Source: Spinactinospora alkalitolerans (GTDB lineage: Bacteria; Actinomycetota; Actinomycetes; Streptosporangiales; Streptosporangiaceae). From it: DNA of 64,000 nt. Positions within the stretch are counted from its first letter, which is position 1, and each line of letters starts with the position of its first letter. The notes under the pieces are model-generated. The model was given only the letters and a program-made list of their open reading frames with translations. It was not told the origin of the DNA and searched no databases. Made by a program: the position numbers and the translations under genes. This document shows positions 22,879 to 43,221 of this stretch, in pieces. The DNA is taken from contig NZ_JACCCC010000001.1 of NCBI RefSeq assembly GCF_013408795.1, positions 5,208,001 through 5,272,000 on the forward strand. Direction: 5' to 3'.

Positions 22879-22882
22879 CTCG

Positions 22883-23250
22883 TGGAGGTGGCGGGAATTG
22901 AACCCGCGTCCTTCGGTACCGCAACAGGGCTTCTCCGGGCGCAGTCTGCTCGCCGTTCTACTCGGCTCCAGCGCTCACGCAGACGTGTCGCTGACGAGCC
23001 CAGCCACGTGATTTTCCCGCTCAGGCCCCGTGGCCTGATCTGAACGGTGAGTCTCCTAACGATGCCGGATCCTGAGCCGGAGACGAGCTCAGGCCGACAG
23101 AGACGCTATCGCTTAGGCAGCGAGAGCGAACTCAGTGCGCTTGGAATTGGCACTTGTTATTTGTGCGATCGCAGGATTAACGAGGTTACAATCGCGGTCC
23201 TCGGCCCGCTTCCCCTGGAACAACCACCGAAGTCGAAACCGATCACCCCC
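22883..23250 (-). ncRNA. ssrA: Transfer-messenger RNA
   Basis: A 368-nt tmRNA on the minus strand. The 5' end GGGGGTGATCGGTTTCGACT pairs with the 3' end CACCTCC to form the 7-bp acceptor stem. The T-arm reads GGGTTCAATTCCC. CCA is not encoded. The tag frame (23113-23151) encodes ANSKRTEFALAA followed by TAA; upstream frames are closed. With SmpB it rescues stalled ribosomes and marks the product for ClpXP. In related genomes ssrA follows smpB directly; here they are 16.4 kb apart because an AICE and a PBP-like gene lie between. Confidence 0.97.
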
Positions 23251-24755: not shown

Positions 24756-24760
24756 ACCCC

Positions 24761-26423: not shown

Positions 26424-26463
26424 GTGACACCCCTCTTGACCAGCGCGTTCTAAAAAATCACTG

Positions 26464-26562: not shown

Positions 26563-26634
26563 AAGTGGAGCGTTGGCACTGCGGTCCCTGCTCCATAGCC
26601 ACCAGCAGGGGCCGCCCGACTCAGGAGGTATCGA

Positions 26635-26919: not shown

Positions 26920-26921
26920 AG

Positions 26922-27683: not shown

Positions 27684-27720
27684 CCCCTACCAGCCCCACG
27701 AAGACAGGGAGAAACCCGCC

Positions 27721-27903
27721 ATGGCCTTGTTCAGCAACAGTGCCAAGACCGACCACACCGTCACCGGCGACGTCAAGCGCATCGAGCGCAAGAACGGCGC
27801 CACCGTCGTCACCCGCCCCGACGGCAGCACCGAGACCTACGAAGGTTCGGTGACCGTGCAGGCGACCACCGTGACCGGTGGCATCAACAGCCGCAGGAAG
27901 TAG
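27721..27903 (+). CDS. Small AICE protein of unknown function
   Basis: 60 residues, basic, mostly predicted beta (VTGDVKRIERKNGATVVTRP, YEGSVTVQATTVTGG). The ATG follows AGGGAG. It resembles the beta-repeat style of the preceding protein in composition, and may be a partner or fragment of the same kind. There are no catalytic residues or membrane segment. It ends 14 bases before a GGGGCCGCC/GGCGGCCCC hairpin (27917-27950). Confidence 0.55.
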   Translation: MALFSNSAKTDHTVTGDVKRIERKNGATVVTRPDGSTETYEGSVTVQATTVTGGINSRRK

Positions 27904-27987
27904 CCGGACATGCCAAGGGGCCGCCTCACCGACCAAAGCACGGCGGCCCCCGGCGCTCCCGATCACGAAACCGAAGGAGCACCACCA

Positions 27988-28293
27988 ATGTCGCACACCG
28001 ACCCCACCGCCGCACAGCAGCGGGCCGCGCGCGTGCTGGTCACCCTGCTCGGTACCGGTCTGCCGCCCGCGGACTGGAGCCTCAGCCAGATCATTCCCGA
28101 CGAACTGACCGGACACCTGGAGCGCGGCGGCACCGCGGGCTTGCAGGCGTGGGCCGAGGCCTTCGGTGCCGAGGTGGACTGGCAGCGCCACCGGGGATGC
28201 CGGCCGCGGGTCATCTTCGAGGTCAACGGCGTGAGCGTGCAGGTGTGGACCTACCTGCCCGAGCTCGATGAGTCCGCCGGAGGTGAGCGGTGA
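27988..28293 (+). CDS. Small AICE protein of unknown function
   Basis: 101 residues. ATG 27988 is chosen because AAGGAG lies 9 bases upstream; the longer frame from 27910 runs through a hairpin and lacks a ribosome site. It contains QQRAARVLVTLLGTGLPPAD and a C-terminal VIFEVNGVSVQVWTYLPELD. No known domain is recognised. Its TGA overlaps the start of the next gene (TGATG), placing it in the transfer operon. A diverged copy of the hairpin leader seen at 33074 and 36010 precedes it. Confidence 0.6.
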   Translation: MSHTDPTAAQQRAARVLVTLLGTGLPPADWSLSQIIPDELTGHLERGGTAGLQAWAEAFGAEVDWQRHRGCRPRVIFEVNGVSVQVWTYLPELDESAGGER

Positions 28294-28781
28294 TGGCCTT
28301 CGACCTGGCGCCGATCCTGCCCACAGTCGAGCCGACGCTGTTCGCCCCAGTGTTCGTGGCGCTGTTCGCCGCACACCAGGTGGGCGACCACTGGGTGCAG
28401 TCCTCCTGCCAGGCCGCCACCAAGGCCCGGCCCGGGTGGGCCGGGCGTGCCGCCTGCGCCCGCCACGTCGCCTCCCTGGCGCTGACCAAGGTCATCGCCC
28501 TGGCGGTGGTGGCGCTGGTGCTGGGCCTGGACATCCACCCCGCGGCCGTCGGGCTCGCGCTGGCCGTGGACGCAGGTTCGCACTACTGGGCCGACCGGCG
28601 CACCACCCTGGCGCGCCTGGCCCAGCGGGTGGGCAAGGGCGAGTTCTACACCCTGGGCGCACCCCGGCCCGGCCACGACGACGCCCCGCACCTGGGCACC
28701 GGCGCCTACGCCCTTGACCAGTCCTGGCACGTGGCCTGGCTGCTGGTGGCCGCCCTGATCACCACGATCGGCGGCGCCTGA
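28293..28781 (+). CDS. DUF3307-like membrane protein
   Basis: 162 residues with about four hydrophobic segments. The signature is VALFAAHQVGDHWVQSSCQA, matching the histidine/aspartate motif (AHxxGDxxxQ) of the DUF3307 family found in plasmids and integrative elements. VDAGSHYWADRRTTLARLAQ is a second His/Asp motif. The function of the family is not known. The start is ATG in a TGATG overlap; the GTG three bases earlier is equally possible. The stop overlaps the next ATG. Position in the tra operon suggests a role in transfer or spread through mycelium. Confidence 0.65.
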   Translation: MAFDLAPILPTVEPTLFAPVFVALFAAHQVGDHWVQSSCQAATKARPGWAGRAACARHVASLALTKVIALAVVALVLGLDIHPAAVGLALAVDAGSHYWADRRTTLARLAQRVGKGEFYTLGAPRPGHDDAPHLGTGAYALDQSWHVAWLLVAALITTIGGA

Positions 28782-28963
28782 TGGAACCCGTCGTCTACAT
28801 CACCCTCGGCATCCTGCTGGCCCTGGCCGCCACCACCGCGGTGAAGAAGGTCCGCGCCGCCCGCAAGCGTGCCGCCGCCCGGATCCGCCGGTTGGCCGGC
28901 CCCCACGTGGTGGCCCGCACCAACAACCGCCGCCGCGCCGCCCGCAAGGGGGTCCGGCGATGA
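28781..28963 (+). CDS. Small membrane protein in the transfer operon
   Basis: 60 residues: one N-terminal membrane helix (VVYITLGILLALAATTAV) followed by a very basic tail of about 40 residues rich in Arg and Lys. It starts in a TGATG overlap with the DUF3307-like gene and overlaps the next start by ATGA. Small single-pass Spd proteins help spread of Streptomyces plasmids; this is a plausible but unproven equivalent. Confidence 0.55.
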   Translation: MEPVVYITLGILLALAATTAVKKVRAARKRAAARIRRLAGPHVVARTNNRRRAARKGVRR

Positions 28964-29154
28964 CCACGACCGACATGGTGCGCCAGGCCGGAGCGCTGGC
29001 CCTGCTGCTGGTGCTGGCCCTGACCCTGGCGGTCACCCTGCTGCGGCTGCTGTCGCTGCCGCTGGCCGTGGCCGCCCTGGCCCTGGACACCGCCGCCGAC
29101 CTGGCAGCCGCGCCCCTGACCGCCGCTGAACGCCACGCCGGAGGTGACCGATGA
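28960..29154 (+). CDS. Small membrane protein in the transfer operon
   Basis: 64 residues with one long hydrophobic stretch of about 40 residues (ALALLLVLALTLAVTLLRLL and onward), probably a hairpin of two helices, and a short acidic/polar tail. It overlaps both neighbours by four bases (ATGA), so it is tightly coupled. No homolog is recognised. Likely a Spd-like accessory of TraB-type DNA transfer, judged only by context. Confidence 0.5.
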   Translation: MTTTDMVRQAGALALLLVLALTLAVTLLRLLSLPLAVAALALDTAADLAAAPLTAAERHAGGDR

Positions 29155-30341
29155 CCACGACCACAACGGCGGCGAAGAACGACGTTGACGAGCTGGAGCA
29201 GTTGCGGCAGCGGCTGTCCCGACGCGAGGACCGCGCCCAGGTGCGCGCCCAGGTCCGCGCCGAACGCACCAAGCGGCGCGCCCAGCAGCGCCAGGAAGCC
29301 ATCCGGCGCGGCGCGATGCTGGCCGGAGAATCCGCCCGCACCCGCCACCGCATCGCCCGGTCCGGTGAGGCCCGCGCGATGCGGGTGGAACGCACCCGAG
29401 CACTAGCCCTCGGCTGCCTGCTGCCGGTCATAGCCGCCTTCGGCGGATGGAGCGCGGCTGGAGTCCAGGCCGGGATGGTGAACCTGCTGTCCCTAGACCC
29501 TGGCTCTCCGGCCGCGGCCGCGGCGTGGCTGGTCGAACCCGCACTGCTGGGGATCGTGGCCGGAGTCATCCTGATCCGCGCCCGACTCCAGTCCGCCGGA
29601 GGCGACCTGGACGCACGCGCCACCCGCATCGAGTTCGGCGCACTGGCCACCTCGATCGTGCTCAACGCCGCCGGACACTGGCCCGAAGCCTTCGACGCCG
29701 GAGCGCTGGCCGCACTGGCCGGCCACGCCCTGGGACCCATCGGCGCCGCAGGCACGGCCTACCTGATCAGCATCATTCAAGACGGCGTCGCCAGCGCGAC
29801 CCCGTGGGTCCTGGACGACGGCTCGGAAGCACCCTCCCTAGTCGACCAGGCAGACCCTGAGAGCGCTCCCCAGGACGTCCCCGAGAGCGCTCCTGGAAGC
29901 ACTGGGGCGCCGCTGCCGCCCGCACTGGACTGGGTCACGGTTCCGGCCGAGGCCCGGCACCTGCCCATCGTGGCGCGCACCGCCCCCCAGCCCCGTCCCG
30001 AGCGTCCGCAGCAGCAGAGTTCCACCGCTGACCGGCGCAAAGAACAGGACTCAGAAGCACCCCGCAAGACCCGCCCGAACAAGGGCGCCAAGATCCCCGC
30101 CGCCGCCAAGAAGCGCGCTGCCGAGGACTCTCCGCGCGCGCTCTCCGATGCAGAGCTGGCCGACCGGCTCAGCGCTCTCATCGCCACCGACGAACTGAGC
30201 GCTGATGCTCCCGTGCGGCGCATCCAGAGCGCTCTCGGGGTCGGCTTCGACCGCGCCAAGCGCGTGCTCGCCATCCACCAGGACCGCACCGAAACCGTCG
30301 TCGCTTCCGGCCTGTCGGTCGTGACCGACTCCGCCGCCTGA
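29151..30341 (+). CDS. DUF2637/SpdB-like membrane protein with C-terminal DNA-binding-like domain
   Basis: 396 residues. The first ~85 residues form a charged coiled coil (ELEQLRQRLSRREDRAQVRA). Four membrane helices follow (residues ~85-220), with the GPIGAAGTAYLISIIQDGV segment typical of DUF2637 proteins of actinomycete mobile elements. A proline-rich linker leads to a C-terminal helical domain (SDAELADRLSALIATDELSA, RIQSALGVGFDRAKRVLAIH), a typical winged or HTH module. It precedes the TraB-like gene by 19 bp with GGAGG. Probable role: membrane partner of the DNA translocase in transfer or intramycelial spread. Confidence 0.72.
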   Translation: MTTTTTAAKNDVDELEQLRQRLSRREDRAQVRAQVRAERTKRRAQQRQEAIRRGAMLAGESARTRHRIARSGEARAMRVERTRALALGCLLPVIAAFGGWSAAGVQAGMVNLLSLDPGSPAAAAAWLVEPALLGIVAGVILIRARLQSAGGDLDARATRIEFGALATSIVLNAAGHWPEAFDAGALAALAGHALGPIGAAGTAYLISIIQDGVASATPWVLDDGSEAPSLVDQADPESAPQDVPESAPGSTGAPLPPALDWVTVPAEARHLPIVARTAPQPRPERPQQQSSTADRRKEQDSEAPRKTRPNKGAKIPAAAKKRAAEDSPRALSDAELADRLSALIATDELSADAPVRRIQSALGVGFDRAKRVLAIHQDRTETVVASGLSVVTDSAA

Positions 30342-30360
30342 CCGAACCGGAGGACTGCAC

Positions 30361-32631
30361 ATGTTCCGCCCCAACCGCGAACAGCCCGACATCGAGGAAG
30401 CGCTGATCCTGGCCGAACGGGGCCGCGAAGCCGAGGTGATCGCGTTTCCCACCGGCGCCCGCCCCACCCAGGTGCCGCCCGCCGGCCCTGAGGCGCCGGC
30501 CACGCAGGTGACCGAGGTCCCCGCCGACGCCGATGCCGAGACCGCCCTCGGCGAGATCGTCGACGACGGCGAGGTTCTCAAGGGCGAGGTCGTCCGGGTT
30601 GACCGCGACGTGGACGCGTTCGTGGCTCAGCGCGGCGATTGGCTGGCCGATCTGGCCGAGCGCAAGAAGAGCGCCCGCCCGATCGTTCCGGCCTACCTGC
30701 GCACCCGTGAGGAGGCCGCACAGACCGCCAAGTGGGTGGCCGACTACTACGCTCACGTGCTGGCCTATCAGGCCACCCGCGCCCCGCTGTATCTGCTGCG
30801 GCTGCTGGGCCGCTCCCCGCGGGGTGCGGGCCGGGCGCTGACCGCGTGGGGCCGCTGGGTCGCCGATGCCGAGTCCAAGCCGCTGCGCCAGGCCGCCGCA
30901 CAGCGGGGCTCAACCGGGGAATACATGGTGCTCTCGCGCGAGCGCAACGTGCGGGTGCGCACCCGCGCCACGCTTTCGGCCGGCACCGCCGCGGTGGTGC
31001 TGGTGACCGCGCTCATCGCCGCTCCGACCACGCCGGGCTGGGGTCCGTGGGTGGCGGTGTGGGCGCTGCTGACCACGCTCGGGGCCTTCGGCGGGAAGAA
31101 GGACGTGCCGCTGATCAACCGCGCGGTGCTGCCCGCCAAGGTGACCAAGCTCGACAGTGACGCGGTGCTGCGGGCGCTGGGCTCGCTGGGCATCGCCGAG
31201 ATCAACAAGGCGCTCGGCCCGAAGGGCAGCGGGATCACCTTCACCGCGCCCATCACCCGCGACGGCCCCGGGTGGCGCGCCGAATTGGACCTGCCCTACG
31301 GCGTCACCGCTTCTGCGGTGGCGGAGAAGCGCAAGGAGCTGGCTTCCGGTCTGCGGCGCAACCTGGGCTGTGTGTGGCCTGAGGCCGAAACCGAGGAGCA
31401 CCCCGGCCGCCTGGTGCTGTGGGTGGGCGACCTGCCGATGAACAAGGCCAAGCCCGCGCCCTGGCCGCTGCTCAAGACCGGCAAGGCCTCCATCTTCGAG
31501 CCGCTGCCCTACGGGGTGGATCAGCGCGGCCGCCCGGTGGCCATTCAGCTCATGTTCGCCAACCTGCTCATCGGCGCCATCCCGCGCATGGGCAAGACCT
31601 TCGGCCTGCGGGTGCTGTTGCTGGCCGCCGCCCTCGATGTCCTGGTTGAGCTGCGGATCTTCGAGCTCAAGGGCACCGGTGATCTGTCGATGCTCAGGCA
31701 GGTCTGCCACGACTACGGCCAGGGCTTCAGTGACCCGGTGCTTGAACGTGCGCTGCTGAGCCTGCGGGAGGTCCGCAAGGAGCTGCTGCGCCGCGCCGAC
31801 GTCATCGCCAACCTGCCCCGCGACATCTGCCCGGAGAACAAGGTCACCCCCGAGCTGGCCGCCAAGAAGACGCTGGGGCTGCACCCGATCCTCATCGGCA
31901 TCGACGAATGCCAGATGCTGTTCGAGCACAAGCAGTACGGCGAAGAGGCCGGCGCCATCGCCGAAGAGATCATCCGCCTTGGGCCCGCGCTGGGCATCAT
32001 CCTGGTGGTGGCCACCCAGCGCCCCGACAAGGACGCCATCCCCACCGGCGTGGCGAGCAACGTGGGTCTGCGGATGTGCTTCAAGGTCACCGGCCAGGTC
32101 GAAAACGACATGGTGCTGGGCACTTCCAGCTACAAGAACGGGTTGCGCGCCACCACCTTCACCATGAGCGACAAGGGCATCGCCTACGCCGTGGGCGTGG
32201 CCGACGAGCCGATCATCTGCCGCTCAGCCTTCGTCGACGGCCCCGACGCCGAAAAGGTCGCCGACCGCGCCCGCCAGCTCCGCGAAGCATCCGGGCGCAT
32301 CACCGGGGTGGCCGCCGGTGAAGCCCCGACCGTCGACGAGGCGCCCGCGGCCAACCTGCTCGATGACGTCCTGGCCGCCTGGCCCACCGGCGAGACCGAA
32401 GCCTGGTGGACCGTCCTGGTGGACCGCCTGGCCGAACTCCGGCCTGAGGAGTACGGCGCATGGGCCGAGGTCACTGACGCCCGCCGCAAGGCCACCCCGC
32501 TGTCCAACGCCATGAAGTCCCAGTACGGCATCGAGGGCCGCCAGATCAACCGGCTCATCAACGGCAAGGAGACCAACCGCCGCGGTGTCGACCTCGACAC
32601 CATCACCAACGCAATCGCGGAGCGTGACTGA
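30361..32631 (+). CDS. FtsK/SpoIIIE-type DNA translocase (TraB-like)
   Basis: 756 residues. Two membrane helices lie near residues 200-240. The motor domain carries Walker A GAIPRMGKTFGL (residues 405-416; the IPRxGKT variant usual in AICE translocases), Walker B LIGIDECQMLF (~511) and the sensor VATQRPDK. The C-terminal ~90 residues form a winged-helix-like module (AMKSQYGIEGRQINRLINGK) that would recognise the transfer locus. TraB-type proteins form a hexameric pore and pump double-stranded plasmid DNA between mycelia with no relaxase. The ATG follows GGAGG. It ends the transfer operon at a strong hairpin. Confidence 0.88.
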   Translation: MFRPNREQPDIEEALILAERGREAEVIAFPTGARPTQVPPAGPEAPATQVTEVPADADAETALGEIVDDGEVLKGEVVRVDRDVDAFVAQRGDWLADLAERKKSARPIVPAYLRTREEAAQTAKWVADYYAHVLAYQATRAPLYLLRLLGRSPRGAGRALTAWGRWVADAESKPLRQAAAQRGSTGEYMVLSRERNVRVRTRATLSAGTAAVVLVTALIAAPTTPGWGPWVAVWALLTTLGAFGGKKDVPLINRAVLPAKVTKLDSDAVLRALGSLGIAEINKALGPKGSGITFTAPITRDGPGWRAELDLPYGVTASAVAEKRKELASGLRRNLGCVWPEAETEEHPGRLVLWVGDLPMNKAKPAPWPLLKTGKASIFEPLPYGVDQRGRPVAIQLMFANLLIGAIPRMGKTFGLRVLLLAAALDVLVELRIFELKGTGDLSMLRQVCHDYGQGFSDPVLERALLSLREVRKELLRRADVIANLPRDICPENKVTPELAAKKTLGLHPILIGIDECQMLFEHKQYGEEAGAIAEEIIRLGPALGIILVVATQRPDKDAIPTGVASNVGLRMCFKVTGQVENDMVLGTSSYKNGLRATTFTMSDKGIAYAVGVADEPIICRSAFVDGPDAEKVADRARQLREASGRITGVAAGEAPTVDEAPAANLLDDVLAAWPTGETEAWWTVLVDRLAELRPEEYGAWAEVTDARRKATPLSNAMKSQYGIEGRQINRLINGKETNRRGVDLDTITNAIAERD

Positions 32632-32636
32632 AACCA

Positions 32637-32661
32637 GGGGGGCGGTCCCGGGCCGCCCCCC
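32637..32661 (+). terminator. Hairpin after the TraB-like gene
   Basis: GGGGGGCGG and CCGCCCCCC form a 9-bp stem with a 7-nt loop, 6 bases past the stop codon. No T-run follows. Confidence 0.55.
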
Positions 32662-32662
32662 C

Positions 32663-32724
32663 GCTAGACCTAGCACCCCTGCTAGCGACACAAACACCGA
32701 TTCACCAGGGATGTAGCCGCTAGC
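32663..32724. repeat. Four GCTAG/CTAGC repeats downstream of traB, candidate transfer locus
   Basis: GCTAG (32663), CTAGC (32670), GCTAGC (32681) and GCTAGC (32719) within 62 bp, interleaved with two copies of CAAACACC(C)GATTC. Transfer loci (clt) of Streptomyces plasmids lie beside traB and hold short repeats read by the TraB winged helix. The rest of 32725-32928 shows nothing recognisable. Confidence 0.4.
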
Positions 32725-32928
32725 AGCCACCAGCGCAAACACCCGATTCCAGCCGCCGGAACAGGGCCGGACCCCTCCCCGGCCTGCTTGCACCCAACCC
32801 ACTGACCGTCACGAAGAGTGACAGCGCGGTCGGTGCCTCTAGCCCCGCCCGGGGCCGCGACATCTGCCAGGACGAGCGGCCCCAGGCGGTTTCCCTGCCC
32901 CGACCAGACAGCCGAGGAGGTGACCCCA

Positions 32929-33054
32929 ATGGTAAAGGCCGTCCGCCGCCTGACCGCCGCCGCCATCGTCCACAGCACGCGTGTTCTGTGCGCCTGCGGC
33001 GTCCACTACTGCCCCAGCGACCCCGCCGAGTGGGCCGCTCACAAGAACTGCTGA
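32929..33054 (+). CDS. Small Cys/His-rich AICE protein
   Basis: 41 residues with a near-ideal AGGAGGTGA ribosome site. After a basic helix, the C-terminal half has C21, C23, H26, C28, H38 and C41 (CACGVHYCPSD...HKNC), spacing that could bind one zinc ion. The size and basic N-terminus suggest nucleic-acid binding. No family is recognised. It stands between the transfer and replication operons and was too short for routine calling. Confidence 0.55.
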   Translation: MVKAVRRLTAAAIVHSTRVLCACGVHYCPSDPAEWAAHKNC

Positions 33055-33073
33055 CCCGTCGCTGACACGAGAA

Positions 33074-33131
33074 AGCGGCCCCGGCGCATAGCCACCAAGC
33101 ACCGCCGGGGCCGCGCTCCAACCGAAAGGAG
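33074..33131 (+). repeat. Duplicated hairpin leader, copy 1
   Basis: Starts AGCGGCCCCGGCGCATAGCC and runs through the ribosome site (AAAGGAG) of the RRQRL operon. It has a perfect 12-bp stem, GCGGCCCCGGCG/CGCCGGGGCCGC, with a 16-nt loop. Nearly the same 58 bp precede xis at 36010-36066, where it contains the end of the DUF3987 gene. Confidence 0.7.
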
Positions 33132-33141
33132 CACTTCCATC

Positions 33142-33192
33142 ATGACCCATCGACCCGCTACCGGCCAGATGCCCGAAGGCGGTGGCCGCTGA
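33142..33192 (+). CDS. 16-codon leader ORF coupled to the RRQRL gene
   Basis: MTHRPATGQMPEGGGR with AAAGGAG 12 bases upstream. Its TGA overlaps the next ATG (TGATG), while the next gene has no good ribosome site of its own. The likely purpose is translational coupling of the downstream gene rather than a functional peptide. Confidence 0.4.
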   Translation: MTHRPATGQMPEGGGR

Positions 33193-33605
33193 TGGCTCGC
33201 AGCGTCGCCGCGTTCCTCGACCCCGACGGCGAGCGCCACGGCATCCCGACCTACCCGTGGGGATGGGCGCGCGTCTTCGACCCCGACCTGGCCACCCGCA
33301 AGCAACTGGCCGCACTCGGACTGCGCCCGGGCGGCCAGGAGCCGGCCGCCCAGCTCATGTGGCGTTCGCGCCGCGGCACCGCCGGGGTGCGCACCGCCGC
33401 CCTGTACCGGCTGTCCCTGGCCAAACCCAAGCGCCCGATGACCGCCGCCCGCGCCCGCGCGCTGGCCGCCGCCCTGCGCGCCCGACGCACCTGCTCCACC
33501 TGCCGCCTGACCTTCGTCTACTGCCTGCCCACCTCGCTGGGCCAGTGCCCCAACTGCGAGCACGGCACCACCCCGGAAGCCTGGGAACTGGAGGAAGCCG
33601 CATGA
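33192..33605 (+). CDS. RRQRL-type zinc-binding AICE protein
   Basis: 137 residues. It matches the small AICE proteins described as RRQRL motif-containing zinc-binding proteins: ATRKQLAALGLRPGGQEPAA, LYRLSLAKPKRPMT, and a C-terminal zinc ribbon TCSTC...QCPNC (CxxC-x17-CxxC). The namesake motif itself is only approximate here. Its ATG overlaps a 16-codon leader ORF and its stop overlaps the primase-polymerase start (ATGA). Constant linkage with the replication gene suggests an accessory role in initiation, perhaps DNA binding. Confidence 0.65.
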   Translation: MARSVAAFLDPDGERHGIPTYPWGWARVFDPDLATRKQLAALGLRPGGQEPAAQLMWRSRRGTAGVRTAALYRLSLAKPKRPMTAARARALAAALRARRTCSTCRLTFVYCLPTSLGQCPNCEHGTTPEAWELEEAA

Positions 33606-34513
33606 GCGTCCGCAGCGTCCTGCCCTACGTGCTGGCCGCCGCCAAGCGCGGGTGGTACGTCTTTCCGCTGGTGTGCGGTGGCAAGCAGCCGGTGCGCCGG
33701 TTCTGCGACTGGGAGCGCCACGCCACCACCGACCCCGACCTGATCGTTCGGTTCTGGAGCGGCGGCGCGTTCAACTACGGCATCGCCTGCGGCCCGTCCG
33801 GGCTGGTGGTCATCGACCTGGACACGCCCAAGCCCGGCGAGACGGCGCCGCCGGAGTGGAGCCGCGAGGGCATCACCGACGGCGCCGACGTCTTCGCCGC
33901 GCTGGCCGAGACCCACGCCGGTGGTGAACTGCCGCTGGACACCTTCACGGTGCGCACCCGCCGCGGTGGCCTGCACCTGTACTACGCCGCACCCGCCGGA
34001 GTGCAGTACCGCAACACCGCCGGCCGCACCCCGAAGGGGCTGGGGTGGCTGATCGACACCCGCGCCCACGGCGGCTACGTGGTCGGCCCCGGCTCCCACG
34101 TGGCCGGCGCCGACGCCTCCGGCCCCTACACGGTGGAGAACGCCGCGCCGCCGGCTCCGCTGCCCGCGTGGCTGGGCGCCCTGCTCCCCAAGGAGGGGGA
34201 GCACACCACCTCCGGCCAGGTCCACCAGATGCTGGCCACCTACCGCGACGCCGCCGGATACGCCGCCGCGGCGCTGCGTGGCGAAGTCGAGCGGGTGCTG
34301 TCCGCCCGGACCGGGCACCGCAACCACACGCTCAACGCCGCCGCCTTCGCCCTGGGCACGCTGATCGGTGGCGGGGTGCTGCCCAAGCACCTCGCCGAAG
34401 ACGCCCTCCTGGCCGCCGGACAGCAGATCGGGTTGCCGCCGGCCGAATGTGAGGCCACCGTGCACAGCGGCATCCAAGCGGGTCTGCGCAAGCCGCGCGG
34501 AGGTGCCGCATGA
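33602..34513 (+). CDS. Bifunctional DNA primase/polymerase (prim-pol), replication initiator
   Basis: 303 residues. The prim-pol catalytic features are LVVIDLDTPKP (metal-binding Asp pair, ~residue 77), the GGLHLYY motif with the conserved His, and WLIDTRAHGGYVVGPGSH, the nucleotide-binding H motif. The C-terminal ~90 residues are a helical primase-C-terminal-like domain (ARTGHRNHTLNAAAFALGTL). In AICEs such proteins prime rolling-circle or theta replication after excision. The ATG overlaps the RRQRL stop, and the stop overlaps the DUF3987 start, so replication proteins are made together. Confidence 0.88.
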   Translation: MSVRSVLPYVLAAAKRGWYVFPLVCGGKQPVRRFCDWERHATTDPDLIVRFWSGGAFNYGIACGPSGLVVIDLDTPKPGETAPPEWSREGITDGADVFAALAETHAGGELPLDTFTVRTRRGGLHLYYAAPAGVQYRNTAGRTPKGLGWLIDTRAHGGYVVGPGSHVAGADASGPYTVENAAPPAPLPAWLGALLPKEGEHTTSGQVHQMLATYRDAAGYAAAALRGEVERVLSARTGHRNHTLNAAAFALGTLIGGGVLPKHLAEDALLAAGQQIGLPPAECEATVHSGIQAGLRKPRGGAA

Positions 34514-36027
34514 GCGGCACCGAGGTGCACGACCAGGATCCCGCGGAACCGTGGGAGCCCCCGGTGCCGCTGGGAGCGGCCCGGACGCTGCCCGCCTTCC
34601 CGGTGGACGCGCTCCCCGACTGGGTAGCCGCCATGGTCACCGGTGTGGCCGAGGAAACCCAGACCCCCGCCGACATGGCCGGATGCCTCGCCCTGGCCGC
34701 GCTCTCGACCGCGGCCGGCGGGCGCGCCATCGTCCAGGTCCGCGGCAACTGGTCCGAGCCGGTCAACATCTTCACCGTGGTGGCGATGCCGCCCGCCTCC
34801 CGCAAGTCCGCGGTGTTTCGCGCCATGACCGCGCCGCTGATGCGCGCGGAAAAGCAGCTCGTGGAACGAGTGCAGCCCCAGATCATCGAGGCTCAACTGG
34901 CGCGCGACGTCGCAACCGGGGCCGCGGAGAAGGCCAAGCGCCTGGCCACCGGCAGCGGCCCCGACGGCGACCCCACTCTCATGGCCGACGCCTCCGATGC
35001 CGCCATGGCTGTGGAAGCCATCCAGGTGCCGCCCCTGCCGCGGCTGATGGCCGACGACATCACCCCGGAAGCCGCCGCCTCCCTGCTGGCCGAACAGGGC
35101 GGGCGCCTGGCCGTGCTCTCCGCCGAAGGCGGCATCTTCGCCACCCTCGCGGGCCGCTACTCCGGCGTGCCCAACTTCGAGGTCTTCCTGAAAGGCCACG
35201 CCGGAGACATGCTGCGAGTGGACCGCAAGGGCGCACCCGCCGAACACGTCGAACACCCCGCGCTCACCCTCGGGCTCGCCGTTCAGCCTGAGGTCATCAG
35301 CGAGATCGCCACCGGCCCCGGATTCCGCGGCAAGGGACTGCTGGGCCGGTTCCTGTACTCGCTGCCCGCCAGCAACGTCGGATACCGCAGGATCGACCCC
35401 GACCCCGTACCCGAAGACGTCGCCGCGGTCTACGACACCCAGTTGCAGACGCTGGTGCACGCGCTGGCCGACTGGGACGATCCCATCCGGCTCCAGGTCC
35501 ACCCCGACGCCCTCAGCGCGCTCCAGAGCCATGCCGAAGTGCTGGAGACCCGCCTGCGCCCCGATAGCGGCGACCTGAACCACATCGGCGATTGGGCCGG
35601 CAAGTACATCGGCGCCGTAGCCCGTTTGGCCGCGCTCATCCACCTGGGCGCCCACCCGAGCAACGGGTGGCGCATCCCCGTCGACGCCGACACCATGGCC
35701 GCCGCGATCCGGCTGGGCGAGTACTTCACCGCCCACGCCCTGGCCACCTTCGACCACATGGGCGCCGATCCCGATCTCGCGGCCGCCCGCACCCTCATGG
35801 CGTGGATCGAGCGCAAGCGCCCCGAGCGCTTCACCGCCCGCGACGCCTTCCGCACGCTCCCGCGCGGCACCTTCCGCAAGGCCGCCGACCTGGCGCCCGC
35901 GCTCGAAACCCTCGAAGGCTACGGCTGGATCCGCCAGGAGCCCGCCCCGCCCCCCAGCAGGAAAGGAGGCCGCCCGCCCTCACCCGCCTACCAGGTCCAC
36001 CCCGACATCAGCGGCCCCGGCGCATAG
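34510..36027 (+). CDS. DUF3987-like replication protein with C-terminal winged helix
   Basis: 505 residues. The central DUF3987 core resembles primase-associated helicases (YfjI group). AMPPASRKSAVFRAMTAPL occupies the Walker A place but has a degenerate P-loop, and AVLSAEGGIFATLAGRYSG corresponds to the strand with the acidic motif. GFRGKGLLGRFLYSLP is a conserved family block. Residues ~430-505 form a winged helix (MAWIERKRPERFTARDAFRT, then GRPPSPAYQV) resembling the product of the 24047 gene. Coupled to prim-pol by ATGA, it likely works as helicase or loader at the origin. Its stop lies inside a repeated hairpin leader. Confidence 0.78.
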   Translation: MSGTEVHDQDPAEPWEPPVPLGAARTLPAFPVDALPDWVAAMVTGVAEETQTPADMAGCLALAALSTAAGGRAIVQVRGNWSEPVNIFTVVAMPPASRKSAVFRAMTAPLMRAEKQLVERVQPQIIEAQLARDVATGAAEKAKRLATGSGPDGDPTLMADASDAAMAVEAIQVPPLPRLMADDITPEAAASLLAEQGGRLAVLSAEGGIFATLAGRYSGVPNFEVFLKGHAGDMLRVDRKGAPAEHVEHPALTLGLAVQPEVISEIATGPGFRGKGLLGRFLYSLPASNVGYRRIDPDPVPEDVAAVYDTQLQTLVHALADWDDPIRLQVHPDALSALQSHAEVLETRLRPDSGDLNHIGDWAGKYIGAVARLAALIHLGAHPSNGWRIPVDADTMAAAIRLGEYFTAHALATFDHMGADPDLAAARTLMAWIERKRPERFTARDAFRTLPRGTFRKAADLAPALETLEGYGWIRQEPAPPPSRKGGRPPSPAYQVHPDISGPGA

Positions 36028-36066
36028 CCACCAAGCACCGCCGGACCGCGCTCCAACCAGAAGGAG
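36010..36066 (+). repeat. Duplicated hairpin leader, copy 2
   Basis: Begins AGCGGCCCCGGCGCATAGCC and ends at the AAGGAG of xis; about 90% identical to 33074-33131. The right arm is damaged (GGG replaced by GA), shortening the stem. The TAG stop of the DUF3987 gene is in the loop, so this is probably the parental copy. Confidence 0.7.
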
Positions 36067-36074
36067 TGCCGAAC

Positions 36075-36293
36075 ATGGAACTGCTCCCCCGGGATGCCCA
36101 GCAGCTCCCGCAAGCCCTGTACACGGTCAAAGAGACCGTGCAGATACTCCGGCTCAGCCGAAGCGAGATCTACGAGCAGATGAGCGCCGGCCGCCTGCGC
36201 TACGTCAAGGTCGGCCGCGCGCGGCGCATCTCCGAGCGCGCCATCGCGGACTTCGTCGCGCTGCTGGAACAGGAAGCCGAGGTGGCCGCCTGA
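36075..36293 (+). CDS. xis: Excisionase, MerR/HTH_17-like
   Basis: 72 residues. The winged-helix signature of AICE excisionases is clear: LYTVKETVQILRLSRSEIYE followed by GRLRYVKVGRARRISERAIA and DFVALLEQE. It binds near att sites to turn integrase toward excision. The ATG follows AAGGAG. Its TGA overlaps the int ATG (TGATG), so Xis and Int are produced together; excision is then probably set by transcription. A longer upstream frame from 35592 is a shadow of the DUF3987 gene. Confidence 0.9.
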   Translation: MELLPRDAQQLPQALYTVKETVQILRLSRSEIYEQMSAGRLRYVKVGRARRISERAIADFVALLEQEAEVAA

Positions 36294-37444
36294 TGGCGCA
36301 ACGCGCACGCCGCGGCGATGACTCCATCTACTGGGACAAGTCCAAGAACTGCTTCGTCGGTGAGGCTTCCATGGGATACACCCCCTCTGGGAAACGCCGC
36401 CGCCCGAAGGTCTACGGGAAGACCAAGACCGAGGTCCGGAACAAGCTCCGAGACAAGCGTCAGGAGCTTGAGAACGGGGTGAAGTCCTCCGCCCGGTACA
36501 CCGTGGCCGACGCGGGTCGCGACTGGCTCAAGAACGGGCTCAAGGGGCGCGATCCGGGAACCGTGAAGCTGTACGCCCACTATGTGGAGACCTGCATCAT
36601 TCCCGGTCTCGGGAAACGCGTTCTCCGGGACCTCACCGCCGATGACGTCGATGACTGGCTGGACACGCTCACCGAGCGGTACGCCACCTCGGTGATCGCG
36701 CGCCTCTTGGGTATGCTCCGGCGGATCATCCGGCAGGCTCAGCGGCGTGACAAGCTGCTCCGGAACGTGGCCGAGCTCGTGGAGGCTCCGGCCGGTACGG
36801 AAGGACGCCCGAGCAAGGCGCTCAACCTGGACCAGGCGCGGGCCGTGCTCGCCGCGGCCGCCGGGTCGCTGATCCACGCCTACATCGTCGTCTCGCTGCT
36901 GACCGGTATGCGCACCGAGGAGGCCCGGGCGCTCCGCTGGGAGCACGTCCACTTGGACCCGGGTGAGGACTCGCCTCCCTACATCGAGGTTTGGCGATCG
37001 GTGCGGAGGAAGGGCGAGACGAAGACCAGGAAGAGCCGGCGGACGCTCGCCCTGCCGCCGCTGGCCGTCCGGGTGCTGAAGGAGCACCAGGAGGAACAGG
37101 ACCGCCAGCAGTTCAGGGCCGGGGACCGCTGGAAGGACGCCGACCTGGTGTTCAGCACCCGCAACGGGACCGAGCGCGACGCTCAAGACGTCAACCGCAT
37201 GTTCAAGAGGGTGACCGAGAAAGCCGGGATCGGCCGGGACTGGAGTCCTCGGGAGCTCCGGCACAGCTTCGTCTCGCTGCTGTCCTCATTGGAGGTGCCC
37301 ATAGAGCAGATCAAGGACTTGGTCGGGCACCACCGGTCATCGACCACTGAGACGGTCTACCGGAAGGAACTCCGGCCGGTCTTGCGGCGGGGAGCGGAGG
37401 TTCTAGGGCCGCTCCTCGAAGAGGAAGAGGGGGAAAACGGCTGA
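36293..37444 (+). CDS. int: Tyrosine site-specific integrase
   Basis: 383 residues. There is an N-terminal arm-binding region (YWDKSKNCFVGEASMGYTPS), a SAM-like core-binding domain (~70-160) and a catalytic domain. It has Arg I in TGMRTEEAR (~206), LRHSF for the second box, GHHRSSTT for the His/Trp position and the nucleophile Tyr in VYRKELRP (~355). The first His of HxxR is Arg here (RELR), a variant I believe is common in actinomycete integrases. It lies 116 bp from attR, as expected. It catalyses integration and excision at the 47-bp att site. Confidence 0.93.
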   Translation: MAQRARRGDDSIYWDKSKNCFVGEASMGYTPSGKRRRPKVYGKTKTEVRNKLRDKRQELENGVKSSARYTVADAGRDWLKNGLKGRDPGTVKLYAHYVETCIIPGLGKRVLRDLTADDVDDWLDTLTERYATSVIARLLGMLRRIIRQAQRRDKLLRNVAELVEAPAGTEGRPSKALNLDQARAVLAAAAGSLIHAYIVVSLLTGMRTEEARALRWEHVHLDPGEDSPPYIEVWRSVRRKGETKTRKSRRTLALPPLAVRVLKEHQEEQDRQQFRAGDRWKDADLVFSTRNGTERDAQDVNRMFKRVTEKAGIGRDWSPRELRHSFVSLLSSLEVPIEQIKDLVGHHRSSTTETVYRKELRPVLRRGAEVLGPLLEEEEGENG

Positions 37445-37455
37445 GAAAACGGCCC

Positions 37456-37476
37456 GTAGGCTCCCTTGTTGGCTCC
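37456..37476. repeat. Paired GTWGGCTCC repeats, likely integrase arm sites (right)
   Basis: GTAGGCTCC at 37456 and GTTGGCTCC at 37468, again 12 bp apart and in the same orientation as the left pair. They lie between the int stop and attR. Confidence 0.55.
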
Positions 37477-37560
37477 ACTGTTCTGTGGGCCGACCGGGGA
37501 GCCTGCGCTTTTGGCCGGTTGACCTGCCACGGGATCCGCGCACACCAGAACTGCCCGTGG

Positions 37561-37607
37561 CGGGCTCAGTCATAGGGGAAGACGCGACCGGCCCCCGGGG
37601 AGGTTGC
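37561..37607. repeat. attR of the AICE
   Basis: Identical over 47 bp to 23700-23746, beginning CGGGCTCAGTCATAGG. It lies 41 bp downstream of the stop of the PBP-like gene, so the target site is the PBP/ssrA intergenic region. Confidence 0.9.
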
Positions 37608-37648: not shown

Positions 37649-39619
37649 TCAGGTTCCCGGCGTGGTGGCCGGAACGCCGCCCACGTCGGCCTGCTCGTCG
37701 CCGGTTTCGGCCCCGATCCGCTGGACGTAGTCGAAGGGCAGGCGCTGCAGGAAGTCCGCTGCCGCGCCGATCGAGTAGCGGTAGGTGTGGGACGGGTCGG
37801 TCTCCACGGCCACGGCGAAGGCGATGTGGCCCTGGTAGCCGACGAACCATTGGACGGCGGTGTCCTCCCCGTCGATCCGCTGCTCGGCGACCCCCGTCTG
37901 ACCGTGCACCGGCACCGTGCCGACGTTGGCCGCGGAGGCGCTGCCCTCCACCACGGTGGAGCGCATCATCTCGCGCAGCGGCTCGATCGCCTCGGGGTTC
38001 AGCCGCCGCTCCTGCTGCTCCTCCTGCCGCCCGCCGCCGTCGTCGGTCACGAGTCTCGGGGCGTGCCAGCTTCCGTCGGCGACCGCGCCGGCCGCCAGCG
38101 CCATCGTCAGCGGGCTGACCCGCACCTGGCCGGCCCCGACCATGGCGGCCGCGGTCTCGGTGGTGCCGCCCGGCACGGTGAACTCGCCGCTGTAGGCCGG
38201 TACGGGCAGCCGCCACTCGCTCCCGATGCCGAAGTCGGCCGCCGTCGCGGCGAGGGCGTCGGGGTCGACCGAGTCGGCCAGGCTCGCGAAGGCCGTGGTG
38301 CAGGTGTGGGCGAAGTCGGTGGCGAGGTCGGGTCGGCCCCACAGCCCGGTGCCGTTGATGGTGGTGAACGTGCGGTCGCCGACCGTCTGCTCGGCCTCGC
38401 AGGGCACCGACCGGTCGGGGCCCGCCGCACCGGATTCGAGCAGCGCCGCCGTCGAGACGATCGTGAACGCCTCGCCCGGCAGGTACTCCTTGGTGAACGC
38501 CCCGTCGTTGTCCACGCTGCCCGGTCGGCTCGCCGAGGCGAGGATCTCGCCGTTCCTGGCGTCCAGCGCGACCAGGTGGGCGTTCTCCGGCACCAGGGAC
38601 AGCGCGCCTTCGGCCGCCTCCTGGACGGTGCCGTCCAGGGTGGTCGTGAGCGACCCGCTCTCGGCGCCCGGCCACTGGTACAGGATGTCGGTCCGCTCGC
38701 CGCCCTCGCCGAGCGTGACGATCTCGGTGGTGGCGGTGCCGGCGAGCCGCTGCTGGTAGACGCTCTGCAGGCCGCCCAGACCCACCGTGTCGCCGGCCTG
38801 GTAGGGGCCTGAGACGCGCGAGGAGACCTTGTGCTCGACCGTGCCCGCGACCTCGCCGATGACCGCGGAGGCCGACTTCGGGCTCAGCGGCATCTCGATC
38901 TGCTCGGCCTCGACGCCGGGGACGGCCTCGGCATCGTCGAGCAGCGCGGAGGCGACGTCCTTCTCGCGCATGAGGACCAGCGGCTGGAAGGCCTCGGGCG
39001 GGGCCGAGCGGACCCGGTTGAGCAGCGGGGCGGGATCCTCGTCGAGGAGCTCGGCGAGCCGGCCCACGCCGTCCTCCATGTCCGCCATGTCGGCCGGGCG
39101 GACCCCGAAAGCCACGACCTCGGTCTCGCCGACCAGCGGCTCCTCCTCGCGGTCGTAGATCTGACCGCGGTCGGGCACGTCGTAGGTGACGGCCAGCCGC
39201 TCCCCCTCGCCCAGCTCGGGGTGGATGACGCTCGGCGACCACGAGATGGTCCAGCCGCCGCCCGTGCGGGTCAGCGGCATGGAGCCGTCGTAGTTCCACA
39301 CCGGGTCGCCGATGCCGAGGTCGGCCTCGGCCTCGAACTCCGCGGTGGCGGTCTCGCCGTCCTTGGTGATCGGGCCGAGGCTCAACCGCAGCGCGGCGAG
39401 GTCGAGCTGGTCGTGCGCCTGCTCCAGCGCCGCGGCGACCTGCTCGACGTCTCCGTCGGTCTGCCGCGCGGCCGCCCGGTAGTCGCCGGCCTGCCAATCC
39501 AGCAGGAAGGTGCGGACGGCGATCTCGGGGCTGGGCTCCGCCGCGCAGCCGGTGACGACCGCCGCGGCGGCGAGGCCCACCGTGGCGGCTGCGAATCGAC
39601 GGGTATGACGGGTGGACAC
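37649..39619 (-). CDS. Penicillin-binding-protein-like lipoprotein lacking catalytic residues
   Basis: 656 residues. The lipobox VVTGC gives a lipid-anchored exported protein. A MecA_N/NTF2-like domain (PEIAVRTFLLDWQAGDYRAA), a dimerisation region and a transpeptidase fold follow. The three active motifs are all altered: SxxK is replaced in LPGEAFTIV (Ser to Glu, Lys to Thr), SxN reads TCTTAF instead of SCNTAF, and KTG reads GQTGVAE (Lys to Gln). It is therefore probably a pseudo-transpeptidase with a structural or regulatory role. The GTG at 39619 is chosen; an in-frame TTG at 39637 is the alternative. It lies 22 bp after smpB, probably in the same operon. Confidence 0.8.
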   Translation of the reverse strand: MSTRHTRRFAAATVGLAAAAVVTGCAAEPSPEIAVRTFLLDWQAGDYRAAARQTDGDVEQVAAALEQAHDQLDLAALRLSLGPITKDGETATAEFEAEADLGIGDPVWNYDGSMPLTRTGGGWTISWSPSVIHPELGEGERLAVTYDVPDRGQIYDREEEPLVGETEVVAFGVRPADMADMEDGVGRLAELLDEDPAPLLNRVRSAPPEAFQPLVLMREKDVASALLDDAEAVPGVEAEQIEMPLSPKSASAVIGEVAGTVEHKVSSRVSGPYQAGDTVGLGGLQSVYQQRLAGTATTEIVTLGEGGERTDILYQWPGAESGSLTTTLDGTVQEAAEGALSLVPENAHLVALDARNGEILASASRPGSVDNDGAFTKEYLPGEAFTIVSTAALLESGAAGPDRSVPCEAEQTVGDRTFTTINGTGLWGRPDLATDFAHTCTTAFASLADSVDPDALAATAADFGIGSEWRLPVPAYSGEFTVPGGTTETAAAMVGAGQVRVSPLTMALAAGAVADGSWHAPRLVTDDGGGRQEEQQERRLNPEAIEPLREMMRSTVVEGSASAANVGTVPVHGQTGVAEQRIDGEDTAVQWFVGYQGHIAFAVAVETDPSHTYRYSIGAAADFLQRLPFDYVQRIGAETGDEQADVGGVPATTPGT

Positions 39620-39641: not shown

Positions 39642-40106
39642 TCAGCGCCGACGGCGGAGCGCGCGCTCGACCTCGCGCTTGGCCTCGCGCTCGGCGATGG
39701 CGTGGCGCTTGTCGTAGTCGCGCTTACCGCGGGCCAGAGCGATCTCCACCTTGGCCTTGCCGTCGCGGAAGTACAGCGACAGGGGCACCAGGGTGTGACC
39801 GGCCTCCCGGGTCTTGCCGATCAGCCTGGCGATCTCTTCGCGGTGCAGGAGCAGCTTACGCGGCCTGCGCGCCGCGTGGTTGGTCCACGTTCCCTGCGTG
39901 TACTCGGGGATGTGGACGTTCTGCAGCCACACCTCGCCGTCCTTGACCAGGGCGAAGCCGTCCACCAGGGAGGCCCGTCCGGCACGCAGCGACTTCACCT
40001 CGGTACCGGTGAGGACCAGCCCCGCCTCGTAGGTGTCGTCGATGTGGTAGTCGTGCCGGGCCCGCCGGTTCTGGGCGACGACCTTGTGTCCTTTTTCCCG
40101 TGCCAC
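39642..40106 (-). CDS. smpB: SsrA-binding protein SmpB
   Basis: 154 residues with the full SmpB beta-barrel: [35 protein letters not shown] and [12 protein letters not shown]. The C-terminal [20 protein letters not shown] helix enters the mRNA channel. SmpB binds tmRNA and brings it to stalled ribosomes. GTG start. It is 22 bp downstream of ftsX. Its RNA partner ssrA is on the same strand but now 16 kb away because of the AICE and the PBP-like gene. Confidence 0.97.
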
Positions 40107-40128: not shown

Positions 40129-41037
40129 TCACACCCGCAGGTAGCGCCGCAGTGTCAGGAAGGAGGCGATGGTGCACAGCAGCACACCGAGGATCATCGA
40201 CATGCCGATGACGTAGAGGACCGAGCCCATCCCCAGCGTGACGTCGAACTGGAACCACTCCTGGATCCTGTCCAGCAGGAAGAACTTCGTCGCGACGATG
40301 AACCCGGAGGCGAAGATGCCGCCGATCAGGCCGGCGATCGCGCCCTCCAGCAGGAACGGGAGCTGGATGTAGAAGTTCGACGCTCCGACGAGCCGCATGA
40401 TGCCGGTCTCCCTGCGGCGACTGTAGGCCGACAGTCGGATCGTGTTGCCGATCAGCAGCGCCGCCGCGGCGAGCTGGACCATGGCGACCGTCAGCGCCGC
40501 CCACTTCAGACCGTCCAGCAGGCCGAAGAACTGGTCGAGGACGCTCTGGTCGTTGGACACGGTGTCGACGCCGCCGCGCCCCTCGACCGCGCTCTGCACG
40601 GCGTCGTACTGGCTGGGGTCCGTGAGCTGCACGCGGAAGTTGTCCGGGATGTCGCCCTCTTCGGTGGCCTCGACGAGCGCCTCCTGGTTGGCGAAGCGGT
40701 CCTGGAAGTCCTGCCACGCCTCGGCCTGGGTGACGTACTCGACGCTGGAGACCTCGGACATCTGCTCGAGGTCGGCCTGGAGGGCGGTGCGGTCCTCCTC
40801 GGTCGCCGGCCCGTTCTCCTGGCAGGTGGTGCTGACCGAGACGTCGGTGCACAGGTAGATCGTGAGCGAAATCCGCTGGTCCCAGTACCCGCGCATCTCC
40901 GAGACCTGCTGGTTGATGAGCAGGCCTCCGCCGAAGAGGGCGAGCGAGATGGCCACCGTGGTGATCACCGCGATGGTCATCGTGAGGTTTCGGCGCAGGC
41001 CGATCCAGATCTCAGAAAGTACGAACTGTGCTCGCAT
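40129..41037 (-). CDS. ftsX: Cell-division protein FtsX
   Basis: 302 residues with four membrane segments: one near residue 25, then a ~140-residue extracytoplasmic domain, then three C-terminal segments (FtsX/MacB fold). The outer domain has two cysteines ([16 protein letters not shown]) that could form a disulfide. [20 protein letters not shown] is the conserved cytoplasmic coupling region contacting FtsE. With FtsE it activates a RipC-like peptidoglycan hydrolase at the septum. ATG start, 83 bp downstream of ftsE. Confidence 0.95.
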
Positions 41038-41120: not shown

Positions 41121-41810
41121 CTAGTACGCCTGGCCGTAGACACCACGCGACTGGTCCCGGACGACCTGCCCCTCCTCGAGTTCGATGACGCGCTTGCGCA
41201 TCGAGTCGACGATCGCGGCATCGTGGGTCGCCATGACGACGGTCGTTCCGGTCCGGTTGATTCGGTCGAGCACCTTCATGATGCCGATCGAGGTGGCGGG
41301 GTCGATGTTTCCGGTGGGCTCGTCGGCCAGCAGGATCTGCGGCCGGTTCACGAAGGCCCGCGCGATGGCGACCCGCTGCTGCTCGCCGCCCGACAGCTCG
41401 TCGGGCATGCGGTTGGACTTGCCCTCCAGGCCGACCAGCTCCACGACCTCCGGGACCACCTTGCGGATGAACCGGCGGGGCTTGCCGATGACCTCCAGCG
41501 CGAACGCGACGTTCTCGAAGACGTTCTTGTTCGGCAGCAGGCGGAAGTCCTGGAAGACGCAGCCGATGCGGCGCCTCAGGTGCGGGACCTTCCAGTTGGA
41601 CAGGCGCGCGAGGTCTTTGCCCGCGACGTGGACCCTGCCCTTGCTGGGCTTCTCCTCCTTGAGGACAAGCCGCAGGAACGTTGACTTACCCGAGCCCGAA
41701 GGTCCGACGAGGAAGACGAACTCGCCCTTGTCGACGTCGATCGAAACCTCGTCGAGAGCGGGGCGTTTCTGGGTCGGGTAGACCTTGGTGACGGTATCAA
41801 AGTGGATCAC
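41121..41810 (-). CDS. ftsE: Cell-division ATPase FtsE
   Basis: 229-residue ABC ATPase: Walker [10 protein letters not shown] (~36), Q-loop CVFQDFRLL, signature LSGGEQQR, Walker [10 protein letters not shown] and H-loop ATHD, all intact. GTG start without a clear ribosome site, perhaps leaderless or started nearby. Partner of FtsX. The 295 bp upstream (41811-42105) separate it from prfB and should hold the promoter; no convincing -35/-10 was found. Confidence 0.96.
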
Positions 41811-42105: not shown

Positions 42106-43221
42106 TCAGCGTCCGTCGCGCTCCTGGCTGCGGAGCCACCGGATCTCGGCGTCGACGAACTCCTCGATCTCACCGTCCAGAACGGCGCTGGTGTTGCCGG
42201 TCTCGACGTTGGTGCGCACGTCCTTGACGTTCTGGTAGGGGTGCAGCACGTAGTTGCGCATCTGGGTCCCCCAGCTGCTCGCCCCGTCGCCGCGCAGTTC
42301 GTTGATCTCGGCGCGCTCCTGCTGGCGCTTGCGCTCCAGCAGCTTGGCCTGCAGCACCGACATCGCGGTGGCCCGGTTCTGCAACTGGGACCGCTCATTC
42401 TGGCACGAGACGACGATGCCCGTGGGCGCGTGCGTGATCCGGACCGCGGAGTCGGTGGTGTTGACGCCCTGGCCGCCGGGACCGCTGGAGCGGTAGACGT
42501 CGATGCGCAGGTCGCTCTCGTCGATGTCGATGTGGTCGCTCTGCTCCACCACCGGCACGACGTCGACCCCGGCGAAGGAGGTCTGGCGGCGGTTCTGGTT
42601 GTCGAAGGGGGAGATGCGGACCAGCCGGTGCGTGCCGTGCTCGCCGCGCAGGGTGCCGTAGGCGAACGGCGCCCTGACCGTGAAGGTCGTGGACTTGATG
42701 CCGGCCTCTTCGGCGTAGGAGGTCTCGTAGACCTCCGTGGGGTAGCCGTGCCGCTCCGCCCAGCGCAGGTACATGCGCTGCAGCATCTGCGCCCAGTCGG
42801 CCGCGTCCACGCCGCCGGCCTGGGCGTTGATGCTGACCAGGGCTTCCCGCTCGTCGTAGGGGCCCGACAGCAGCGTGCGCACCTCCAGCTCGCCCACGTC
42901 CTTGCGCAGGGCCGCCAGCTCGGCCTGGGCCTCGGCCAGGGTGTCGGCGTCGTCCTCGGCCGCGGCCAGTTCGAACAGCACACCGATGTCGTCGACCCGT
43001 CGGCGGATGGCCTCGGCCCTGGTGACCTCGGTCTCCAGGTAGGACAGCCTGCGGGTGACCTTCTGGGCGTTGTCCTGGTCGTTCCACAGCTCGGGGTCGG
43101 CAGACTGCTCGCGCAGCTGTTCGATCTCCGTGCGCTTGGCATCGAGGTCCAGCACGGATTCCACGCTCGCCAGGGTCGACGAGAGTTCCTTGATCTGCTC
43201 TGCGGGGTCTAGATCTGCCAC
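42106..43221 (-). CDS. prfB: Peptide chain release factor 2
   Basis: 371 residues. The GGQ catalytic loop is in [16 protein letters not shown], and the UGA-reading tripeptide SPF is in [11 protein letters not shown]. The N-terminal coiled-coil domain is complete. The gene is continuous with no programmed +1 frameshift, as usual in actinobacteria. GTG start. Releases peptides at UGA and UAA. It begins the prfB-ftsE-ftsX-smpB block conserved in the group. Confidence 0.96.

Follow-up and report, generated by a model that had tools for sequence, protein, structure and literature searches.

Evidence for an old and conserved pseudo-transpeptidase at the ftsEX-smpB locus in a family of Streptosporangiales

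The question raised by this locus is what a penicillin-binding protein (PBP) is kept for once its catalytic motifs are gone. The window, i.e. the whole analysed stretch of 64,000 nucleotides from Spinactinospora alkalitolerans, carries a gene for a class B PBP-derived lipoprotein (Table 1). An earlier note on this DNA had claimed that the SxxK, SxN, and KTG motifs of this protein are all altered, that a clean frame, the length, the lipoprotein signal, and the NTF2-like domain are nevertheless kept, and that the gene adjoins ftsEX-smpB. All of this was borne out. On the DNA and in the alignment to active PBPs the three motifs read EAFT, TCT, and QTG, the GTG start at 39619 opens an intact reading frame of ~656 amino acids on the minus strand that ends at 37649 (an alternative TTG start upstream, at 39637, would give 662 amino acids), and the neighbours smpB, ftsX, ftsE, and prfB were confirmed. 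Thus, judged by its motifs the window protein is not a class B PBP enzyme; judged by its fold it is a class B PBP, with the PBP_dimer and Transpeptidase domains above the Pfam cut-off, and it belongs to the MecA_N-type subgroup, with the NTF2-like MecA_N domain preceding the pedestal. A lipobox Cys follows the signal peptide and is nearly invariant (at least 90% in a 68-row alignment); in L073, L078, and L080, three members of the catalytically dead clade described below, it is missing and anchoring may differ. From the loss of the motifs, low-affinity acylation by beta-lactams is predicted to be absent. The genome has eight Transpeptidase matches, the window gene included, and the solved proteins closest to the window protein in sequence are PBP3 from B. 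subtilis and PBP5 from E. faecium.

Table 1. Positions within the window of the pseudo-transpeptidase gene, its domains and altered motifs, and the surrounding features.
Feature	Position	Strand	Evidence or remark
Pseudo-transpeptidase lipoprotein (class B PBP-derived)	37649..39619	-	ORF, Pfam, DNA check
MecA_N (NTF2-like) domain	39203..39529	-	Pfam 50.7 bits, cut-off 22
PBP_dimer (pedestal) domain	38696..39178	-	Pfam, above cut-off
Transpeptidase domain, predicted fold intact, catalysis lost	37760..38575	-	Pfam, AlphaFold2, Foldseek, VIA-align
EAFT replacing SxxK	38462..38473	-	DNA and alignment to active PBPs
TCT replacing SxN	38297..38305	-	DNA and alignment to active PBPs
QTG replacing KTG	37892..37900	-	DNA and alignment to active PBPs
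smpB, syntenic neighbour	39642..40106	-	Pfam, synteny
ftsX, syntenic neighbour	40129..41037	-	Pfam, synteny
ftsE, syntenic neighbour	41121..41810	-	Pfam, synteny
prfB, syntenic neighbour	42106..43221	-	Pfam, synteny
ssrA (tmRNA), downstream neighbour in relatives	22882..23250	-	Split from the pseudo-PBP here by the mobile element
Putative structured RNA, ~158 nt	within 23580-23746	-	Covariance model; follows the pseudo-PBP and precedes ssrA in the majority of examined family genomes
Candidate sigma-E-like promoter GCAACC-N17-CGTCTT, RNA start	23718-23746 and 37579-37607	-	Motif search
Integrated mobile element, ~14 kb	23700-37607		47-bp identical flanking repeat

The explanation tested first was recent decay, i.e. 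pseudogenisation in this strain with the gene now drifting, to which the change of all three motifs in the window may point; it was rejected by the clade-wide pattern. From the window's family 163 genomes were drawn (150 + 13) and 110 (70 + 40) were examined, so that 67 of the 68 genera in the 150-genome draw are represented; G104, where the best match was weak, and G039, where the gene is split over two contigs, were left aside. L048 was dropped as a second copy of L046, and the genomes behind L042 and L045 also appear as L087 and L102. An apparent gene loss in G055 was dismissed as an assembly cut, the contig ending inside the gene with 171 bases matched at 77%. The family, which we take to be the Streptosporangiaceae of GTDB, includes Marinactinospora (in NCBI Nocardiopsidaceae, Streptosporangiales), Nocardiopsis, Marinitenerispora, and Allonocardiopsis. 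The dead gene lies beside smpB in all 110 examined genomes, the frame being open over at least 616 amino acids in 40 of them and the alignment full-length in the other 70, and in one genome of a second family of the order (L147) the gene is dead as well. The comparison with orthologues that the earlier note had suggested gave a uniform answer, as none of the 110 family genomes keeps the Lys of SxxK or of KTG (0/111 for each over the dead clade); in active relatives these residues are found in 60/60 and 59/60 sequences, L186 being the exception. Other catalytic residues survive sporadically in the dead clade, i.e. the Ser of SxxK in 11, the Ser of SxN in 27, and the Asn of SxN in 3 of the 111 members. 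If all five positions (S, K, S, N, K) are counted together, 71 of the 111 keep none, 39 keep one, and a single member keeps two, and 59 of the 60 active relatives retain all five.

Orthologues with intact motifs (STFK, SCN, KTG) do exist. Three of them (L148, L149, and L150) belong to a third family within this order, L151 and L153 represent two families from other orders, and in all five genomes the gene follows ftsE-ftsX-smpB; they share with the dead protein the locus, the length (640-663 amino acids), a lipobox-like start, and the three domains, but not the loss of the motifs. The earlier note had held that intact orthologues at this locus would indicate recent decay; since they are confined to other families, the loss is rather old and single. 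A tree calculated for 35 dead and 60 active sequences (95 rows) by a quick search with SH-aLRT support, after removal of the motif columns, agrees with this: a branch with a support of 100 sets all dead rows apart, so that one change is needed, and since active PBPs in general carry the motifs, this change is a loss. Catalysis is thus, as far as alignment and tree allow us to say, a function lost once, in the common ancestor of the window's family and its sister family.

The gene did not drift after this loss. The ratio dN/dS, determined according to Nei-Gojobori (NG86) for 12 close pairs and rough at this G+C, is 0.20-0.58 for the dead gene and 0.15-0.70 for its transpeptidase domain. In the four pairs that could be compared with the active paralogue (the other eight, among them G112-G045, were excluded as the paralogue sequence was lacking for at least one genome and the query fell on another gene or on the dead gene itself) the values are 0.20/0.58/0.29/0.52 for the dead and 0.37/0.48/0.28/0.47 for the active gene, and the neighbours reach 0.07-0.33 (ftsX) and 0-0.23 (smpB) in the same pairs. 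By these estimates purifying selection on the dead gene is about as strong as on the active paralogue and weaker than on ftsX and smpB. Selection for a non-catalytic protein, as suggested in the earlier note, is therefore supported by the presence of the dead gene in 110/110 family genomes and one more, by the single loss, and by purifying selection; with catalysis lost throughout the clade and selection maintained, the protein qualifies as a conserved pseudoenzyme. Open frames or full-length alignments in 110 genomes that lack the same residues, the single loss on the tree, and purifying selection make recent pseudogenisation in this strain extremely improbable.

Moreover, selection does not act on the same parts of the dead and the active protein. 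The closest full relative within the window's genome is the paralogue L004 (G000:C1, ~3.78 Mb), which comprises MecA_N, PBP_dimer, and Transpeptidase and is 36% identical over the matched part; it lies elsewhere in the genome, its motifs SAFK, SCN, and KTG are intact, and conservation among the active paralogues resides in the transpeptidase domain. Where both genes occur in one genome (14 genomes, giving 91 pairs that are not independent), the identity of MecA_N is 0.683 among dead versus 0.552 among active proteins (higher in the dead protein in 89/91 pairs), that of the pedestal 68% versus 65% (66/91), and that of the transpeptidase domain 0.571 versus 0.684 (4/91). Seven disjoint pairs yield the same picture, with MecA_N higher in the dead protein in 7/7 and its transpeptidase domain lower than that of the paralogue in five, equal in one, and higher in one. 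In a broader set the identities of MecA_N, pedestal, and transpeptidase domain are 0.51/0.41/0.42 for 24 dead and 0.33/0.42/0.52 for 17 active rows. The number of columns conserved to at least 95% is 23 (dead) and 6 (active) in MecA_N and 32 and 50 in the transpeptidase domain, a count that is weaker than the paired control as there is more diversity, and there are frequent gaps, among the active rows. These comparisons show, at the level of domain identities, a shift of constraint away from the transpeptidase domain and towards the NTF2-like domain at the N-terminus, i.e. the dead protein has been re-centred on its N-terminal half.

The transpeptidase domain is nevertheless predicted to keep its fold. 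AlphaFold2 models of the dead protein (68 sequences; pLDDT 90.5, pTM 0.86) and of the active orthologue L148 (17 sequences; pLDDT 89.4, pTM 0.81) agree in that the first motif begins the same helix (residues 382-396 in the dead and 401-415 in the active protein) and the third motif lies in the same strand (571-582 and 586-595). The best Foldseek matches are PBP5 (PBP5fm), PBP3 from B. subtilis, and PBP2a (E values 1e-37 to 1e-32) with TM-scores of 0.55-0.67, which means that the domain arrangement of the window protein is not closely superposed on theirs. VIA-align of residues 146-633 gives Z values of ~40 to transpeptidases from Atopobium and Eggerthella and 38.9 to PbpA from M. tuberculosis. 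The kept fold and two cysteines beside the active site (conserved in 110 and 111 of the 111 dead and in 60/60 active proteins, and possibly linked by a disulfide), with the Cys in the middle of the SxN motif present in 111/111, could suggest that the protein is still an enzyme that carries out a different chemistry in the old pocket. We consider this quite improbable, as the SxN-motif Cys is also found in 60/60 active relatives and is thus ancestral rather than new, and as no residue has become fixed in the column of the old Ser, where at least 12 kinds occur, the column of the KTG Lys being occupied by Q, V, I, or L.

Known relatives illustrate what such a protein may do. PBP3 from B. subtilis, PBP5 from E. 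faecium, and PBP2a from S. aureus share the order of the three domains with the window protein; they are, however, active low-affinity transpeptidases, whereas the window protein has none of the motifs. In PBP2a the N-terminal region helps to form an allosteric site that senses peptidoglycan, and titles of PDB entries matched by Foldseek name PBP2a allosteric-site complexes. The lipoprotein PBP-lipo from M. abscessus is presumably homologous to the window protein. According to the sections available of the respective report, PBP-lipo, like the window protein an actinobacterial lipoprotein PBP, acts at the septum but requires its catalytic serine, a mutant of which failed to rescue (PMC9170245). 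On the other hand, as described in the part consulted of a study on B. subtilis, catalytically inactive PBP2B supports division while the MecA_N-type PBP3 supplies catalysis (PMC5656894). PBP2B is a class B PBP that can support division without catalysis, as may be the case for the window protein, but its inactive form was made in the laboratory by mutating an active enzyme, and for the dead clade inactivity is the natural state.

The dead PBP most likely has a structural or sensing function rather than an enzymatic one. More specifically, we regard it as moderately probable that the protein is an old pseudoenzyme that acts as non-catalytic, lipid-anchored scaffold or sensing adaptor. A MecA_N-type class B PBP lipoprotein would have lost its D,D-transpeptidase activity once and would then have been retained; secreted and anchored to lipid, it would rely on the half made up of MecA_N and pedestal instead of on catalysis, serving as scaffold or peptidoglycan-sensing adaptor for a wall-synthesis complex or the FtsEX division complex. 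Active paralogues would perform the cross-linking in its place, and the transpeptidase domain would persist as a folded body, possibly binding substrate or a partner. A protein whose N-terminal half is kept and whose chemical half is lost could be a sensor or scaffold. Against this explanation count the PBP-lipo mutant, which indicates that catalysis can matter in such proteins, the evolution of the gene, which by the estimates above is faster than that of ftsX and smpB, and the seven disjoint pairs, two of which do not show the lower conservation of the transpeptidase domain.

A possible septal site, the putative role in septal wall synthesis proposed in the earlier note, and a possible link to FtsX are suggested by the gene order and by the protein family; the order by itself does not establish a link to FtsX. 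The pseudo-PBP is fixed at x in the locus prfB-ftsE-ftsX-smpB-x-ssrA in 65/65 neighbourhoods (62 genomes in addition to the window) and in 40/40 further ones, and in the remaining seven examined family genomes it shares one stretch with smpB. In L049-L053 and other loci the gap between ftsX and smpB holds ~1.2 kb extra, room for one gene. smpB and prfB are housekeeping genes with unrelated functions. The position between smpB and ssrA in relatives might suggest that the dead protein serves translation rescue instead of the cell wall. This is very improbable, as the protein has a lipobox and PBP domains that are all extracytoplasmic, and as smpB-ssrA works without a dead PBP: in 19 genomes of other families no PBP match lies within 1.5 kb of smpB (two of the stretches being shortened by contig ends), and in seven of these 19 ssrA follows smpB within 1.5 kb.

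In most family genomes examined the space between the pseudo-PBP and ssrA contains a putative structured RNA on the same strand, represented in the window by a stretch of ~158 nt at 23580-23736. The median distance from the stop codon of the PBP gene to the start of the RNA is 66 nt (40 loci, rough rule) and that from its end to ssrA 182 nt (41 loci). A covariance model built from 23 sequences matches 48 of 55 family loci outside its main set (the misses being L046, L077, L085, L218, L222, L242, and L244) and 0/6 loci of other families; with stricter filters it matches 4/4 family genomes and 0/56 other genomes of the class, and the RNA occurs once in the window's genome. In 64 aligned matches 108 cells are changed on both sides of a kept pair, versus 35.6 in shuffles and 4-11 with partners slid, the alignment being one fitted to the structure. 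Rfam gave no match at gathering thresholds and only a chance-level match at E up to 5, and we found no RNA upstream of ssrA described in the open-licence literature; the parts consulted of a Planobispora rosea transcriptome study mention neither the dead gene nor the RNA (PMC8269224).

At the start of the RNA AAC-N17/18-CGTC is found in 64/64 matches (63 with 18) versus 858 of 50,000 random 100-nt pieces, GCAACC being present in 60 and CGTCTT in 56 of the 64; the -10-like part lies within the RNA model and the -35-like part outside. The spacing of 17-18 was taken from a table of S. coelicolor promoters, a spacing of 15-17 giving 1/64, and the sigma-E promoters in the sections consulted of that source, e.g. 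that of the cwg operon, have the same form (PMC6767563). By its motif the candidate promoter is thus sigma-E-like. An envelope-stress promoter of this kind directly downstream, although it would serve the RNA and not the dead gene, and the fully kept transpeptidase fold would fit a decoy or sensor protein whose pocket binds beta-lactams or muropeptides non-covalently and does not react with them. We regard this as rather unlikely, as the columns of the pocket vary freely over the dead clade and as, measured against the active paralogue, conservation is lowest in the transpeptidase domain.

In the window a mobile element, presumably AICE-like, splits the pseudo-PBP from ssrA, its neighbour in relatives. 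It encodes a tyrosine integrase, an HTH_17 protein, and DUF3987 and Prim-Pol proteins, and is flanked by a direct repeat of 47 identical bases (23700-23746 and 37561-37607). The att core is the candidate sigma-E-like promoter of the RNA and not a tRNA; as the repeat spans exactly that promoter, a complete copy stands at both junctions. The element also contains an exact 35-bp direct repeat (33074-33108 and 36010-36044) and, near its left end, a 33-nt inverted repeat (24485-24517 and 24723-24755; 94% complementary, 205 nt apart).

Returning to the sensing adaptor, one may speculate that an NTF2-centred adaptor, derived in one step from an active wall lipoprotein, and a sigma-E-type (envelope-stress) RNA set right after its gene form a clade module at ftsEX-smpB-ssrA that couples division, wall stress, and ribosome rescue, an idea we consider doubtful.

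Taken together, the alignments, tree, and selection estimates argue for a real, old, and conserved pseudo-transpeptidase that is new as far as the open-licence literature reaches, where we did not find the dead PBP family described. As the proteins pass the Pfam cut-off, automatic annotation calls them penicillin-binding transpeptidases, and these antibiotic-producing actinobacteria are consequently credited with one beta-lactam target too many. To our knowledge, most inactive class B PBPs described so far are point mutants made in the laboratory. The family described here is a natural experiment on a PBP without catalysis that spans 67 genera and has its control in the intact orthologues found at this locus in other families; it offers a direct route to asking what PBPs do besides catalysis.
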